This document shows, one piece after another, positions 2,493-5,358 of a DNA stretch of 64,000 nt. This DNA comes from an uncultured Pelagibacteraceae bacterium (GTDB lineage Bacteria; Pseudomonadota; Alphaproteobacteria; Pelagibacterales; Pelagibacteraceae): NCBI GenBank assembly GCA_902559305.1, contig CACEHK010000001.1:1-64000 (forward strand), in the 5' to 3' direction. A program made the position numbers and the translations under genes. How positions within the stretch are numbered: the stretch's first letter is position 1; every line of letters starts with the position of its first letter. A model generated the notes under the pieces. It was not told the DNA's origin, did no database searches, and saw nothing but the letters and a program-made list of their open reading frames with translations.

Positions 2493-3344
2493 CTAGTCTG
2501 CTAGACCGTCTGATCTAGCAACATTTCTTTCATTGTGGATTGGTAACACTTTTCCATATATTGCTTTTGAGTGCTCTGGTGTATTAACTCTCCATGGATC
2601 TAAAACGTAAGCAGGAATACACATGTATCTTGATTTTTGTCCTTCTATTTTTGTTACCCTATGTAATGTAAATCTACCTTTGAATATTTGTAGGTCCCCC
2701 GGTTCTAATTGAAGTTGTTTAACTCTTTTTCTATCGCCATTTAAAACTTTTTTAACTTCTTCAAAATTTTCATTTCCTGGCTCTCGAATATTTGGACAGT
2801 ATTCAAATACACCACCTTTCTCTGGCTTTTGAATCATTAAACTTAATGTAAATTCACAACTATCAAAATGCCAAGGAAGAATTCCTTCAGGCTTCATAAC
2901 ATTGTAAGCATGGCAAGCCAATGGATCTGCCCATCTATAAATTGGGGAAACTCCTAAGCATGCTGATATAAATTTTAACAGTTCATCTGTTTCATAAAGG
3001 TATTTCATTTCTGAATTTTTTGGAAAACAATCAGAATTTAAATAGCCATTATATCTATTCATAAAAGTTCTTTTTGGATGATCTTTAGATAAATTTATAT
3101 CATCTTCAGCATATAAATATGGATTTATACTTTCTTTAGACATGTAAACTTCATCAAGTTGTTTTTCCAACTCTGAATTCATAATTTTTAATGATTTAGA
3201 TAAGATAAAATTTGATATGGTAGAACAACTAAATTGATCTAGTTCTTTTCTACATCTTTTAATTAAGTTTTTAATTATTGGAGAATTTAAGTCGTAAATA
3301 GGATATTTTTCTAAATCTACTATAGACTTAAGTCTTTCGTTCAC
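2493..3344 (-). CDS. Fe(II)/2-oxoglutarate-dependent oxygenase, HalD/ArpA-like
   Basis: A 283-residue protein with the facial triad of a 2OG oxygenase: H159-x-D161 in PWHFDSCE, distal His228 in TLHRVT, and Arg239 placed to hold 2-oxoglutarate. Because an Asp and not Gly follows the first His, it should hydroxylate rather than halogenate. The sequence resembles bacterial HalD/ArpA-like proteins, some of which act on free amino acids or small charged molecules. It overlaps the nucleotidyltransferase start region by 4 bases and abuts the carnitine-dehydrogenase-like gene. A methylated amino acid or betaine is a natural guess from context, but the substrate is not readable from sequence. Confidence 0.82.
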   Translation of the reverse strand: MNERLKSIVDLEKYPIYDLNSPIIKNLIKRCRKELDQFSCSTISNFILSKSLKIMNSELEKQLDEVYMSKESINPYLYAEDDINLSKDHPKRTFMNRYNGYLNSDCFPKNSEMKYLYETDELLKFISACLGVSPIYRWADPLACHAYNVMKPEGILPWHFDSCEFTLSLMIQKPEKGGVFEYCPNIREPGNENFEEVKKVLNGDRKRVKQLQLEPGDLQIFKGRFTLHRVTKIEGQKSRYMCIPAYVLDPWRVNTPEHSKAIYGKVLPIHNERNVARSDGLAD

Positions 3345-3715
3345 TTCAGGTCTCCATCCTCACGCATTTTAGCTCTAATTTTAGTCGCTGAAATTTTTTG
3401 TATTTCTTCAGGCATTACTACTTCCTCTATTTTGTATCCTACTCCTCTGCCATAGCATATATTAGTAATATTGGGCACTAAGATAATTTTAAATCTACCC
3501 TCGTATTTAGGGTTTAATCTTTCTTCTATTTTTTTTTTGACTGTTTCAAAATCAAAAGGATTATCATCTACCCCTTGAACATCTCTTATCTGAATACAAA
3601 CTTGACCTGTCTTTTTAATTATTTCTTCAAATAATGCGTAGTGCCCATCATGAAATGGCTGCCATCTTCCAAGCATCTGTGCTGTTGGTTTCTTATTATT
3701 CCATTGATAAGACAT
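3341..3715 (-). CDS. HxGH-motif nucleotidyltransferase (cytidylyltransferase-like)
   Basis: A 124-residue protein starting at the ATG at 3715, whose A is the last base of the kinase TAA stop (TAATG). A start 11 codons upstream is open but would lie inside the kinase gene, so I prefer 3715. The hallmarks are GRWQPFHDGH at 16-25, with the ATP-binding H22-x-x-H25, and ISATKIR near the C-terminus, the second phosphate-binding motif. Such enzymes transfer AMP or CMP to a phosphorylated small molecule. The partner kinase directly upstream would supply the phosphate ester. It is shorter than typical NMN or pantetheine-phosphate adenylyltransferases. The acceptor is unknown. Confidence 0.82.
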   Translation of the reverse strand: MSYQWNNKKPTAQMLGRWQPFHDGHYALFEEIIKKTGQVCIQIRDVQGVDDNPFDFETVKKKIEERLNPKYEGRFKIILVPNITNICYGRGVGYKIEEVVMPEEIQKISATKIRAKMREDGDLK

Positions 3716-4122
3716 TATTTTATATCCTTTGCTATTTTGGTTGCCCAAACTTTAGCATCTTGGGTTGTTACATGACAATCATATTTTTCTGGTTTTACAA
3801 ACATTTGATTTGTATCTTCAAACCTACCTTCTTTAATCGTATCAAGCCAAACAACATAGTCTGCAGGAAAAAGATTTCTCGCTTCAGGAGTTGGGCATAT
3901 AAAATCAGCAATAACATTATTTCCTTCACCTTTCAATTTAAGCGCGTTATCTGCCATTCTTTTAGCTTGTCTTTTTCTACCTTCCTCAGAAAAATCCCAA
4001 TCATTAGCAGCTTTTCTTATTTCATCTGCATTAAGTCTTTTAGAAACAATTAACTTTGCTAATTCGTTTGCCAAAGTAGTTTTACCTGCACCTGGAAGTC
4101 CCATAATTAGAATTATTTTCAT
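3715..4122 (-). CDS. Small P-loop kinase, adenylylsulfate-kinase-like
   Basis: A 135-residue kinase with Walker A GLPGAGKTT at 8-16 and segments resembling CysC: an L-N-A-D-E-I-R stretch, then D-W-D-F-S-x-E-G-R and a D-F-I-C-P-T-P-E-A-R lid region. It is shorter than true APS kinases (about 180-200 residues). No ATP sulfurylase or sulfate-reduction gene is in the window, so sulfate activation is doubtful. The stop overlaps the nucleotidyltransferase start and its own start overlaps the M24 gene stop by one base, so the pair is translationally coupled. I infer that it phosphorylates a small metabolite that the nucleotidyltransferase then activates. Confidence 0.8.
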   Translation of the reverse strand: MKIILIMGLPGAGKTTLANELAKLIVSKRLNADEIRKAANDWDFSEEGRKRQAKRMADNALKLKGEGNNVIADFICPTPEARNLFPADYVVWLDTIKEGRFEDTNQMFVKPEKYDCHVTTQDAKVWATKIAKDIK

Positions 4123-5358
4123 TATATATCTTCTAAAGGGTGATGAGACATAAGTTCAAGATTATTTTGACCTACTAAATACTGTTGCTCTAGTTTAACT
4201 CCTTCTTTACCACCTACTTTTCCGATATAACTTTCTAATGTGATAGTCATATTTTTTTCAAAATAACCTTCCCTTTGTCCTCCATCAGTTGGATATTTTA
4301 TTTGTGGCCACTCATCACATAGTCCAATACCATGAAGCATGCAGGAATATCTATTTCCATAATATTCTTCAGGCAATTTCCAAGATTTTTCTGTAAATTC
4401 TCTAAAAGATGTACCAGATTTGATCAATCTGTGATTATGATTAATTTGTTCAACAGCCATTTGATATAATTTTTTCTGATCTTCATTAAATTTGTGACCC
4501 TCAACAAATGTTCTCGATATATCTGCACAATATCCATAAGGTCCAACCATATCTGTGTCAAAAGATATTATTTCACCTTTTTGAATTATTTTATTACTAC
4601 TTTCTTGCATCCATGGATTTGTTCTTTCACCAGATGATAAAATTCTACATTCAATCCATTCTCCACCATTTTCAATATTTGTTTTATGTAAAATTGACCA
4701 AAGTTCGTCTTCGGTCATACCAGCCTTTAATTCATTACGCATTTTAGAAACACCTATTTCAGCAACCTCTATTGCTGCCTTCATGCATTTTAATTCTTCA
4801 GAAGATTTTATAACTCTAGCTTGTTCAAGTATTAATTTAGCATCTACTACTTTAATATCTGCTTTGTTTAATGCTGTAACCGCTGGAGCATTAATAATAT
4901 CAATTGCAACTTTTTTACTTTTAAAATAAGAATTTGATAAATCTTTGATTTCATTAATCCATTTTTTTAATTGTGTACTTGCTTGATCACCGTTGCTAAA
5001 ATAATCCCAAGTTATTGCTGGTCTTATTTCATCTATTAAATTTAAGTGGCTAGATAATCCCTCGCAATTAAAATATTCATATAATATTATAGGTCCGTTT
5101 ACTGGTACAAAACAATAACGAGTTAAGTTATGCATGTTATAAACACTCATATTTACAGTGTCTAAAGCATACCTAACATTTACAGGATCAAATAATATAC
5201 AAGCTTCTAAATTATTTTTTTCTAGTTCTTTTTTTACTCTGTCCAACCTATAAGATCTAAGTTTCCGAAAGTTGATCTCGTCCTCTTTTAATCTTTTTTT
5301 TTTTTATAAAATTTACTTTTGATTTCGTATTAGGTGTAATTTTTCTATTAAATTTCAT
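4122..5358 (-). CDS. M24 metallopeptidase-fold protein, DddP-like, reading frame broken at a T12 tract
   Basis: The intact frame (TTG at 5246, open back to 5303) encodes 374 residues of the M24 pita-bread fold. It has metal ligands in FDTD and CADISRTF, the His in CMLHGIGLCDEW, and Glu in TLESY and KLEQQY. Stretches GGEWIECRILSSG.RTNPW, IIQKGEIISFDTD and Y-x-C-x-L-H-G-x-G-L-C-D-E-W closely match remembered DMSP lyase DddP, including the Tyr, His and Asp that surround its active site. The normal N-terminus is missing. An ATG at 5358, two bases after the Rieske stop, would read into this frame if the 12-base T run at 5294-5305 were 11. Either the assembly has an indel or slippage is used. DMSP cleavage is possible, but other M24 amine or ectoine hydrolases are alternatives. 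Confidence 0.7.

Follow-up and report, generated by a model that had tools for sequence, protein, structure and literature searches.

What is the joint product of a short APS-kinase-like kinase and a short HxGH nucleotidyltransferase whose genes are coupled in a Pelagibacteraceae bacterium? Here, we analyse this gene pair (KIN and NT) in the window, a stretch of 64,000 nucleotides, as well as in other bacteria and in viruses. We consider it probable that KIN-NT is a compact sulfate-activation module, in which NT would act as ATP sulfurylase and KIN as APS kinase, together constituting a PAPS synthase. This proposal is based on an assimilatory operon in the alphaproteobacterial family f25, a locus swap in the sister family f2, the sulfotransferase neighbours of viral KIN-NT, and the co-occurrence of the pair with AprA in genomes without Sat or CysDN.

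Gene pair and predicted structures

KIN (3715..4122, minus strand) encodes a 135-residue, lid-less, APS-kinase-like P-loop kinase with the P-loop GLPGAGKTT and is a candidate APS kinase. NT (3341..3715, minus strand) encodes an HxGH nucleotidyltransferase of NadM/PPAT fold with the motifs GRWQPFHDGH and ISATKIR, 124 residues long when counted from the conserved ATG, and is a candidate minimal ATP sulfurylase. Both reading frames were confirmed where the original prediction had placed them, coupled by a TAATG junction within which the KIN stop and the NT start have one base in common. The junction between the upstream gene for a DddP-like M24 protein (4122..5246, minus strand) and KIN is of the same overlap type, and the NT stop overlaps the GTG start (GTGA) of a downstream gene for a HalD-like Fe/2OG oxygenase (2493..3344, minus strand; PF23169, E 8.1e-12), so that translational coupling spans at least four genes. 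The oxygenase and the M24 protein probably stand outside the KIN-NT module, as their presence among relatives is patchy. By its sequence, the oxygenase is more likely a hydroxylase than a halogenase, because it retains the HxD motif (WHFD). The start of the M24 gene is frameshifted in the window (about 5246-5358, minus strand), with residues 1-17 and 25-411 in different frames by comparison with 411-residue relatives.

The window's genome comprises 1.08 Mb on 52 contigs; among named genomes, single-cell genomes of Pelagibacteraceae (SAR11) are closest to it. In line with the original prediction, the window has no sulfate gene in the roughly 10 kb around KIN-NT; AprA is encoded elsewhere in the genome (G000:C8:2-1720), and no sulfotransferase was found in this incomplete assembly.

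KIN matches the Pfam APS_kinase family PF01583 with E 1.9e-10 and 41.4 bits, above the gathering cut-off of 21.1, and its fused relatives reach 50-53 bits. Against the curated apsK equivalog TIGR00455 it scores 35.2 bits (49.0 bits for the fused protein of G445), far under the cut-off of 138.7, because the C-terminal lid RDPKGLYKKAR is missing, as seen in alignment to CysNC kinase domains. Among solved structures, the best matches to a profile of 52 KIN relatives are APS kinases (2yvu, E 1.6e-14). The KIN model (mean pLDDT 96.1) superposes on APS kinases with Z 16.0-18.4 and rmsd 1.7-2.2 over up to 135 residues, with gluconate kinase near behind (Z 15.8). On the strength of this model, KIN is predicted to fold as a lid-less APS kinase. 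The kinase had been described as APS-kinase-like and shorter than APS kinase. Its length and missing lid bear out the latter; the likeness stands in that the nearest structures are all APS kinases, but it does not extend to the curated apsK cut-off. Clear placement within the APS kinase family, with sulfate-activation partners elsewhere in the genome, had been named as the outcome that would refute the original prediction. This outcome was largely obtained: KIN is nearest to APS kinases and AprA is encoded elsewhere in the genome, but the apsK cut-off is missed and the partner is no known sulfurylase.

The N-terminal half of NT is related to archaeal NadM (1f9a, E 1.8e-10). The NT model (mean pLDDT 93.7) matches 1ej2 with a TMq of 0.71 in Foldseek and both PPAT and NadM with Z about 11, and the HxGH, NPF and ISxTxIR motifs of NadM are present in the same fold. 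Residues R17, H22, H25, R44, N52, R90, Y94, S109, T111 and R114 are invariant among 43 NT sequences. NT scores below both NadM cut-offs (24.6 bits against 181.2 for TIGR01527, 28.3 bits against 127 for PRK01153). It matched the ATP-sulfurylase domain PF01747 at no E up to 0.1, neither NT nor KIN matched CysD or CysN, and ATP sulfurylase was absent from the top fold-library matches of NT, a result that does not exclude a distant relation to that enzyme. The nearest folds use NMN or phosphopantetheine, and it is from gene context that we infer the sulfurylase activity of NT.

An NadR-like NAD salvage module, with KIN as nicotinamide riboside kinase and NT as NMN adenylyltransferase, would fit the closeness of the N-terminal half of NT to archaeal NadM and the NADAR-domain gene beside the fused gene in Casjensviridae phages. 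We give this reading hardly any credence. From the NPF motif to the C-terminal GY motif, NT is missing some 25 residues of a stretch that NadM needs for NMN, presumably for its binding and recognition. Moreover, the best matches of KIN are APS kinases, complete genomes with KIN-NT encode NadD in addition, and the sulfur and sulfotransferase neighbourhoods described below would be left unexplained.

Distribution in Pelagibacterales

KIN-NT is conserved across Pelagibacterales. NT was detected in 44 of the 61 related genomes, with identities of up to 97% and without internal stops, and kinase profile matches adjoin it in nearly all of the genomes that have it. The conservation of NT and the confident models of both proteins argue that KIN and NT are not chance reading frames. 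The kinase occurs in 74 of the 80 loci fetched, adjacent to NT in 53 and separated from it in 21 by one to three open reading frames whose combined length is about 2.2-4.7 kb. The inserts that were inspected encode one or two large exported, autotransporter-like proteins of about 700-820 residues on the same strand, with a propeller-like N-terminal and an autotransporter-like C-terminal part (L043:4897-9416, L045:845-3313, L046:7848-10139, L047, L048). A phylum-wide search returned a single further genome, which was already known; KIN-NT is patchy in cellular genomes, many of which were incomplete in our comparison.

Pelagibacter genomes retain KIN and NT, followed almost always by an enoyl-CoA hydratase gene, while the presence of nearby Rieske, DddP-like, oxygenase, dehydrogenase and BHMT genes varies. 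Since these neighbours vary and the pair persists, the betaine setting of KIN-NT is probably incidental, and the expectation of a product in betaine metabolism is not upheld. The related idea that KIN-NT makes a new nucleotide-activated compound for the metabolism of betaine or related osmolytes in SAR11 draws on the Rieske, BHMT, DMGDH-like and DddP-like genes around the pair in the window. It appears very unlikely to us, as those genes are missing from many KIN-NT genomes and none of them stands beside the pair in viruses, f2 or f25.

In Pelagibacterales genomes with AprBA, KIN-NT is the only sulfate-activation system that we found, with neither Sat nor CysDN detected. A single-copy sulfotransferase gene is present in most but not all KIN-NT genomes of this order. 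Counting against sulfate activation, KIN-NT of Pelagibacter proper lies among betaine-type genes and not among sulfur genes. There are also exceptions among individual genomes: G009 (92% complete) carries aprA and a sulfotransferase gene, yet we found no KIN-NT in it, and the near-complete G358 has an intact KIN beside an NT that a frameshift splits (L167:6932-7305). The NT match of G156 was not resolved into a gene.

Sulfur gene contexts in other families

In f2, a sister family within the same order, KIN-NT lies tail-to-tail with aprBA. At this locus in G038 and G049, CysD, CysNC and DUF2061 stand between the same flanking genes in place of AprBA and KIN-NT. Without correction for shared ancestry, aprA is found in 16/16 KIN-NT genomes of f2 as against 0/8 others (Fisher p 1e-6), and CysN exceeds its cut-off in 0/16 as against 4/8 (Fisher p=0.007). 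As AprBA and KIN-NT form one locus in f2, their co-occurrence there represents few independent events. Four f2 genomes have neither system; this absence is uninformative, since G043, G048 and G052 lack the flanking FAD gene and the contig of G059 ends just before the site. Several further features mark the f2 loci. In all loci inspected, aprA is followed by a 116-residue protein that matches neither Pfam nor NCBIfam (L033:5168-5518, minus strand, and homologues), and type I secretion ABC and HlyD-like genes, together with a gene for a giant Met/Gly-rich protein, flank KIN-NT (L033:40-4220 and homologues). CysD in this family is extended at its N-terminus by about 190 residues without Pfam match (L170:6686-8158, L171:8860-10353, L172:8398-9885, L173:6991-8463).

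An assimilatory context is found in f25, an alphaproteobacterial family apart from that of the window, with genomes of ~1 Mb. All four f25 genomes (G393, G314, G216, G084) have the operon cbiX-cobA-cysI-cysH-DUF2061-KIN-NT. CysN and CysD were detected in none of the four, Sat in none of three, and AprA in none; G084 does encode Sat, within a capsule locus, which counts against our proposal. The CysH of f25 shows the CC...CxxC and ECGIH pattern of APS-type reductases, and the APS model outscores the PAPS model, with neither above its cut-off. With an APS-type CysH and, in three of the four genomes, no known sulfurylase, the activity that f25 lacks is APS formation, i.e., the step assigned here to NT, which makes NT the candidate APS maker of this family.

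Fused KIN-NT proteins, with the kinase first and a second domain outside the Sat family, also occur in the bacteria G445, G247 and G176. Sulfotransferase genes lie about 3 kb from KIN-NT in G247 and about 9 kb in G176, and a TPR-sulfotransferase gene is divergent from KIN-NT in G442. In the essentially complete genomes G442, G445 and G176 we found no CysN, CysD or Sat; G247 encodes CysD/CysN in addition to KIN-NT, which counts against the proposal. In G013 and G851, NT adjoins a full-length canonical APS kinase instead of KIN (PF01583 E 1.5e-30 in G013).

These last two genes belong to capsule cassettes of the order CysC-NT-PykL, and the corresponding cassette of G050 reads CysC-Sat-PykL-sulfotransferase. 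At first sight NT cleanly replaces Sat in these cassettes, but three more genomes have CysC-PykL with neither gene adjacent, so that the comparison supports the proposal weakly. In capsule-type loci of Pelagibacterales and relatives, CysC, Sat or NT is repeatedly accompanied by a pyruvate-kinase-barrel protein (L038:6575-7561, L175:355-1773, L176:6981-8330, L338-L341). The inserted autotransporters, the type I secretion genes of f2 and the capsule locus of G013 were grounds for considering a kinase-cytidylyltransferase route to surface glycans; this route was set aside, as it leaves the cysH/cysI operon and AprA unexplained.

Viral relatives

Two scans of viral contigs yielded hundreds of KIN-NT relatives. 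KIN and NT form a single reading frame of 255-321 residues in 64 of the 154 viral loci fetched, and 122 non-redundant loci were left after removal of near-identical contigs. In 33 of these 122, a sulfotransferase gene lies directly upstream (-1) on the same strand. Sulfotransferases account for 40 of 466 positions within two genes of viral KIN-NT and for 1 of 809 positions at a distance of five or more genes (p=3e-17), which suggests that PAPS is supplied by many viruses themselves; the target of sulfation is perhaps their own coat or the cell surface. DUF2061 adjoins viral KIN-NT in 12 loci (p=4.5e-5) and is also found with KIN in f25 and with CysNC in f2.

The fusion is present in deposited phages of Stenotrophomonas, Xanthomonas and Clavibacter. 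In Clavibacter phage 33, a NADAR gene and a weak match to Sulfotransfer_4 are located just upstream of it. Casjensviridae phages have a NADAR-domain gene that overlaps the fused gene at its start (L055:5559-6002, L057:5559-6002), and about 3 kb upstream they carry a gene with the annotation cysteine dioxygenase.

In the NT tree, in which many deep forks are open, the genes of SAR11 lie nested within viral ones, and those of f1 and f2 belong to separate viral-rich clades, which suggests repeated exchange between viruses and hosts. On one viral contig (L179), NT is 86% identical to that of the window and stands beside primase-like and DNA-methylase-like genes, which suggests a recent virus-host transfer in SAR11.

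About 18 viral loci contain KIN alone, without NT, and this bears on an alternative in which KIN is an APS kinase and NT is not a sulfurylase. NT might adenylylate another acceptor or recycle a by-product, with APS provided by AprBA or by the host cell. Such a role would agree with a fold that is NadM/PPAT-like and not Sat-like, and with the presence of AprBA, able to make APS from sulfite, in the KIN-NT Pelagibacterales. It is harder to reconcile with f25, where AprA is absent, three of the four genomes have no known sulfurylase and the APS-type CysH/CysI operon nevertheless ends in KIN-NT, or with the repeated fusion of NT to KIN and the position of NT beside a canonical APS kinase in G013 and G851. 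We therefore regard a non-sulfurylase NT as unlikely.

Proposed role in sulfate activation

In the proposed sulfate-activation module, NT would join sulfate to the AMP part of ATP, forming APS and pyrophosphate, and KIN, as a shortened APS kinase, would phosphorylate APS to PAPS. Whether separate or fused, the two would thus make up a PAPS synthase of ~250 residues. In viruses and several bacteria, PAPS would feed the neighbouring sulfotransferase, and in one alphaproteobacterial genus APS from NT would feed the assimilatory CysH. In Pelagibacterales, the pair could provide PAPS for the single-copy sulfotransferase. NT could also run in reverse and convert APS from AprBA and pyrophosphate to ATP and sulfate, which would complete sulfite oxidation. 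Both uses are possible in SAR11, and they are not exclusive. It had been predicted that the pair makes a nucleotide-activated product. The notion that one enzyme uses the product of the other is retained here, while an unfamiliar metabolite gives way to APS and PAPS, given the sulfur, APS reductase, sulfotransferase and CysDNC-type contexts elsewhere.

To our knowledge, ATP sulfurylases are of two kinds, Sat and CysDN. In the open-access journal literature, we found neither an assignment of a sulfurylase role to the partner of KIN nor a description of a small ATP sulfurylase. Most SAR11 bacteria are reported to lack ATP sulfurylase despite an AprAB route (PMC10356861). Smith and co-workers found cysC and aprA in the same 5/7 SAR11 strains and cysQ in 7/7, whereas cysDNCHIJ and sat were missing (PMC5069961); the text of that study calls cysC absent and its table scores it present. 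This cysC is likely KIN.

We favour, with somewhat less assurance than the module itself, the wider view that NT represents a third class of ATP sulfurylase, without evolutionary relation to the other two, and forms with KIN the smallest known PAPS synthase, spread between marine viruses and bacteria, closing the AprBA route of SAR11 and supplying PAPS. If so, this third kind of ATP sulfurylase would have about 120 residues and derive from another branch of the nucleotidyltransferase superfamily. The reading of sulfate activation from genomes would change accordingly, as organisms scored as lacking it, including SAR11, may have it. SAR11 bacteria count among the ocean's most abundant cells, and KIN-NT is a concrete candidate for their reported ATP sulfurylase gap.

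Comparison with known systems

Among the closest known systems is the bifunctional PAPS synthase (PAPSS; APS kinase and Sat). The fused KIN-NT proteins of viruses and bacteria share its order, kinase first and nucleotidyltransferase second, as in the animal enzyme, and the proposed overall reaction, from ATP and sulfate to PAPS, would be the same. Unlike PAPSS, which has roughly 620 residues, the fused viral proteins have 255-321; KIN lacks the lid, and the NT half is of NadM/PPAT type, without Sat match or PUA-like domain. KIN shares with the APS kinase CysC (PF01583, TIGR00455) the fold, the P-loop, the substrate-site pattern D..R...N...F....R..Q..R and F(I/V)xP, but has only about 135 residues, no RDPKGLYKKAR lid, and N in place of the first D of DGD.

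NT would catalyse the reaction of Sat (PF01747) and CysDN, and it occupies equivalent cluster positions, namely in the exchange with CysD-CysNC, in the cysH/cysI operon and beside canonical CysC. However, it is far smaller than Sat and without sequence match to it, and it bears no resemblance to the PP-loop/GTPase pair CysDN. With NadM and phosphopantetheine adenylyltransferase NT shares the fold and the GRxQPxHxGH, NPF and ISxTxIR motifs, but it has about 115-125 residues as against 160-180, the central acceptor region is shortened, and the invariant R44 and YGR(G/D)VGY replace NadM residues. Finally, PHROG 10255, annotated only as 'kinase' and with no function assigned to its second half, is a fused phage form of exactly the KIN-NT pair (kinase 1-109, NT 127-228).
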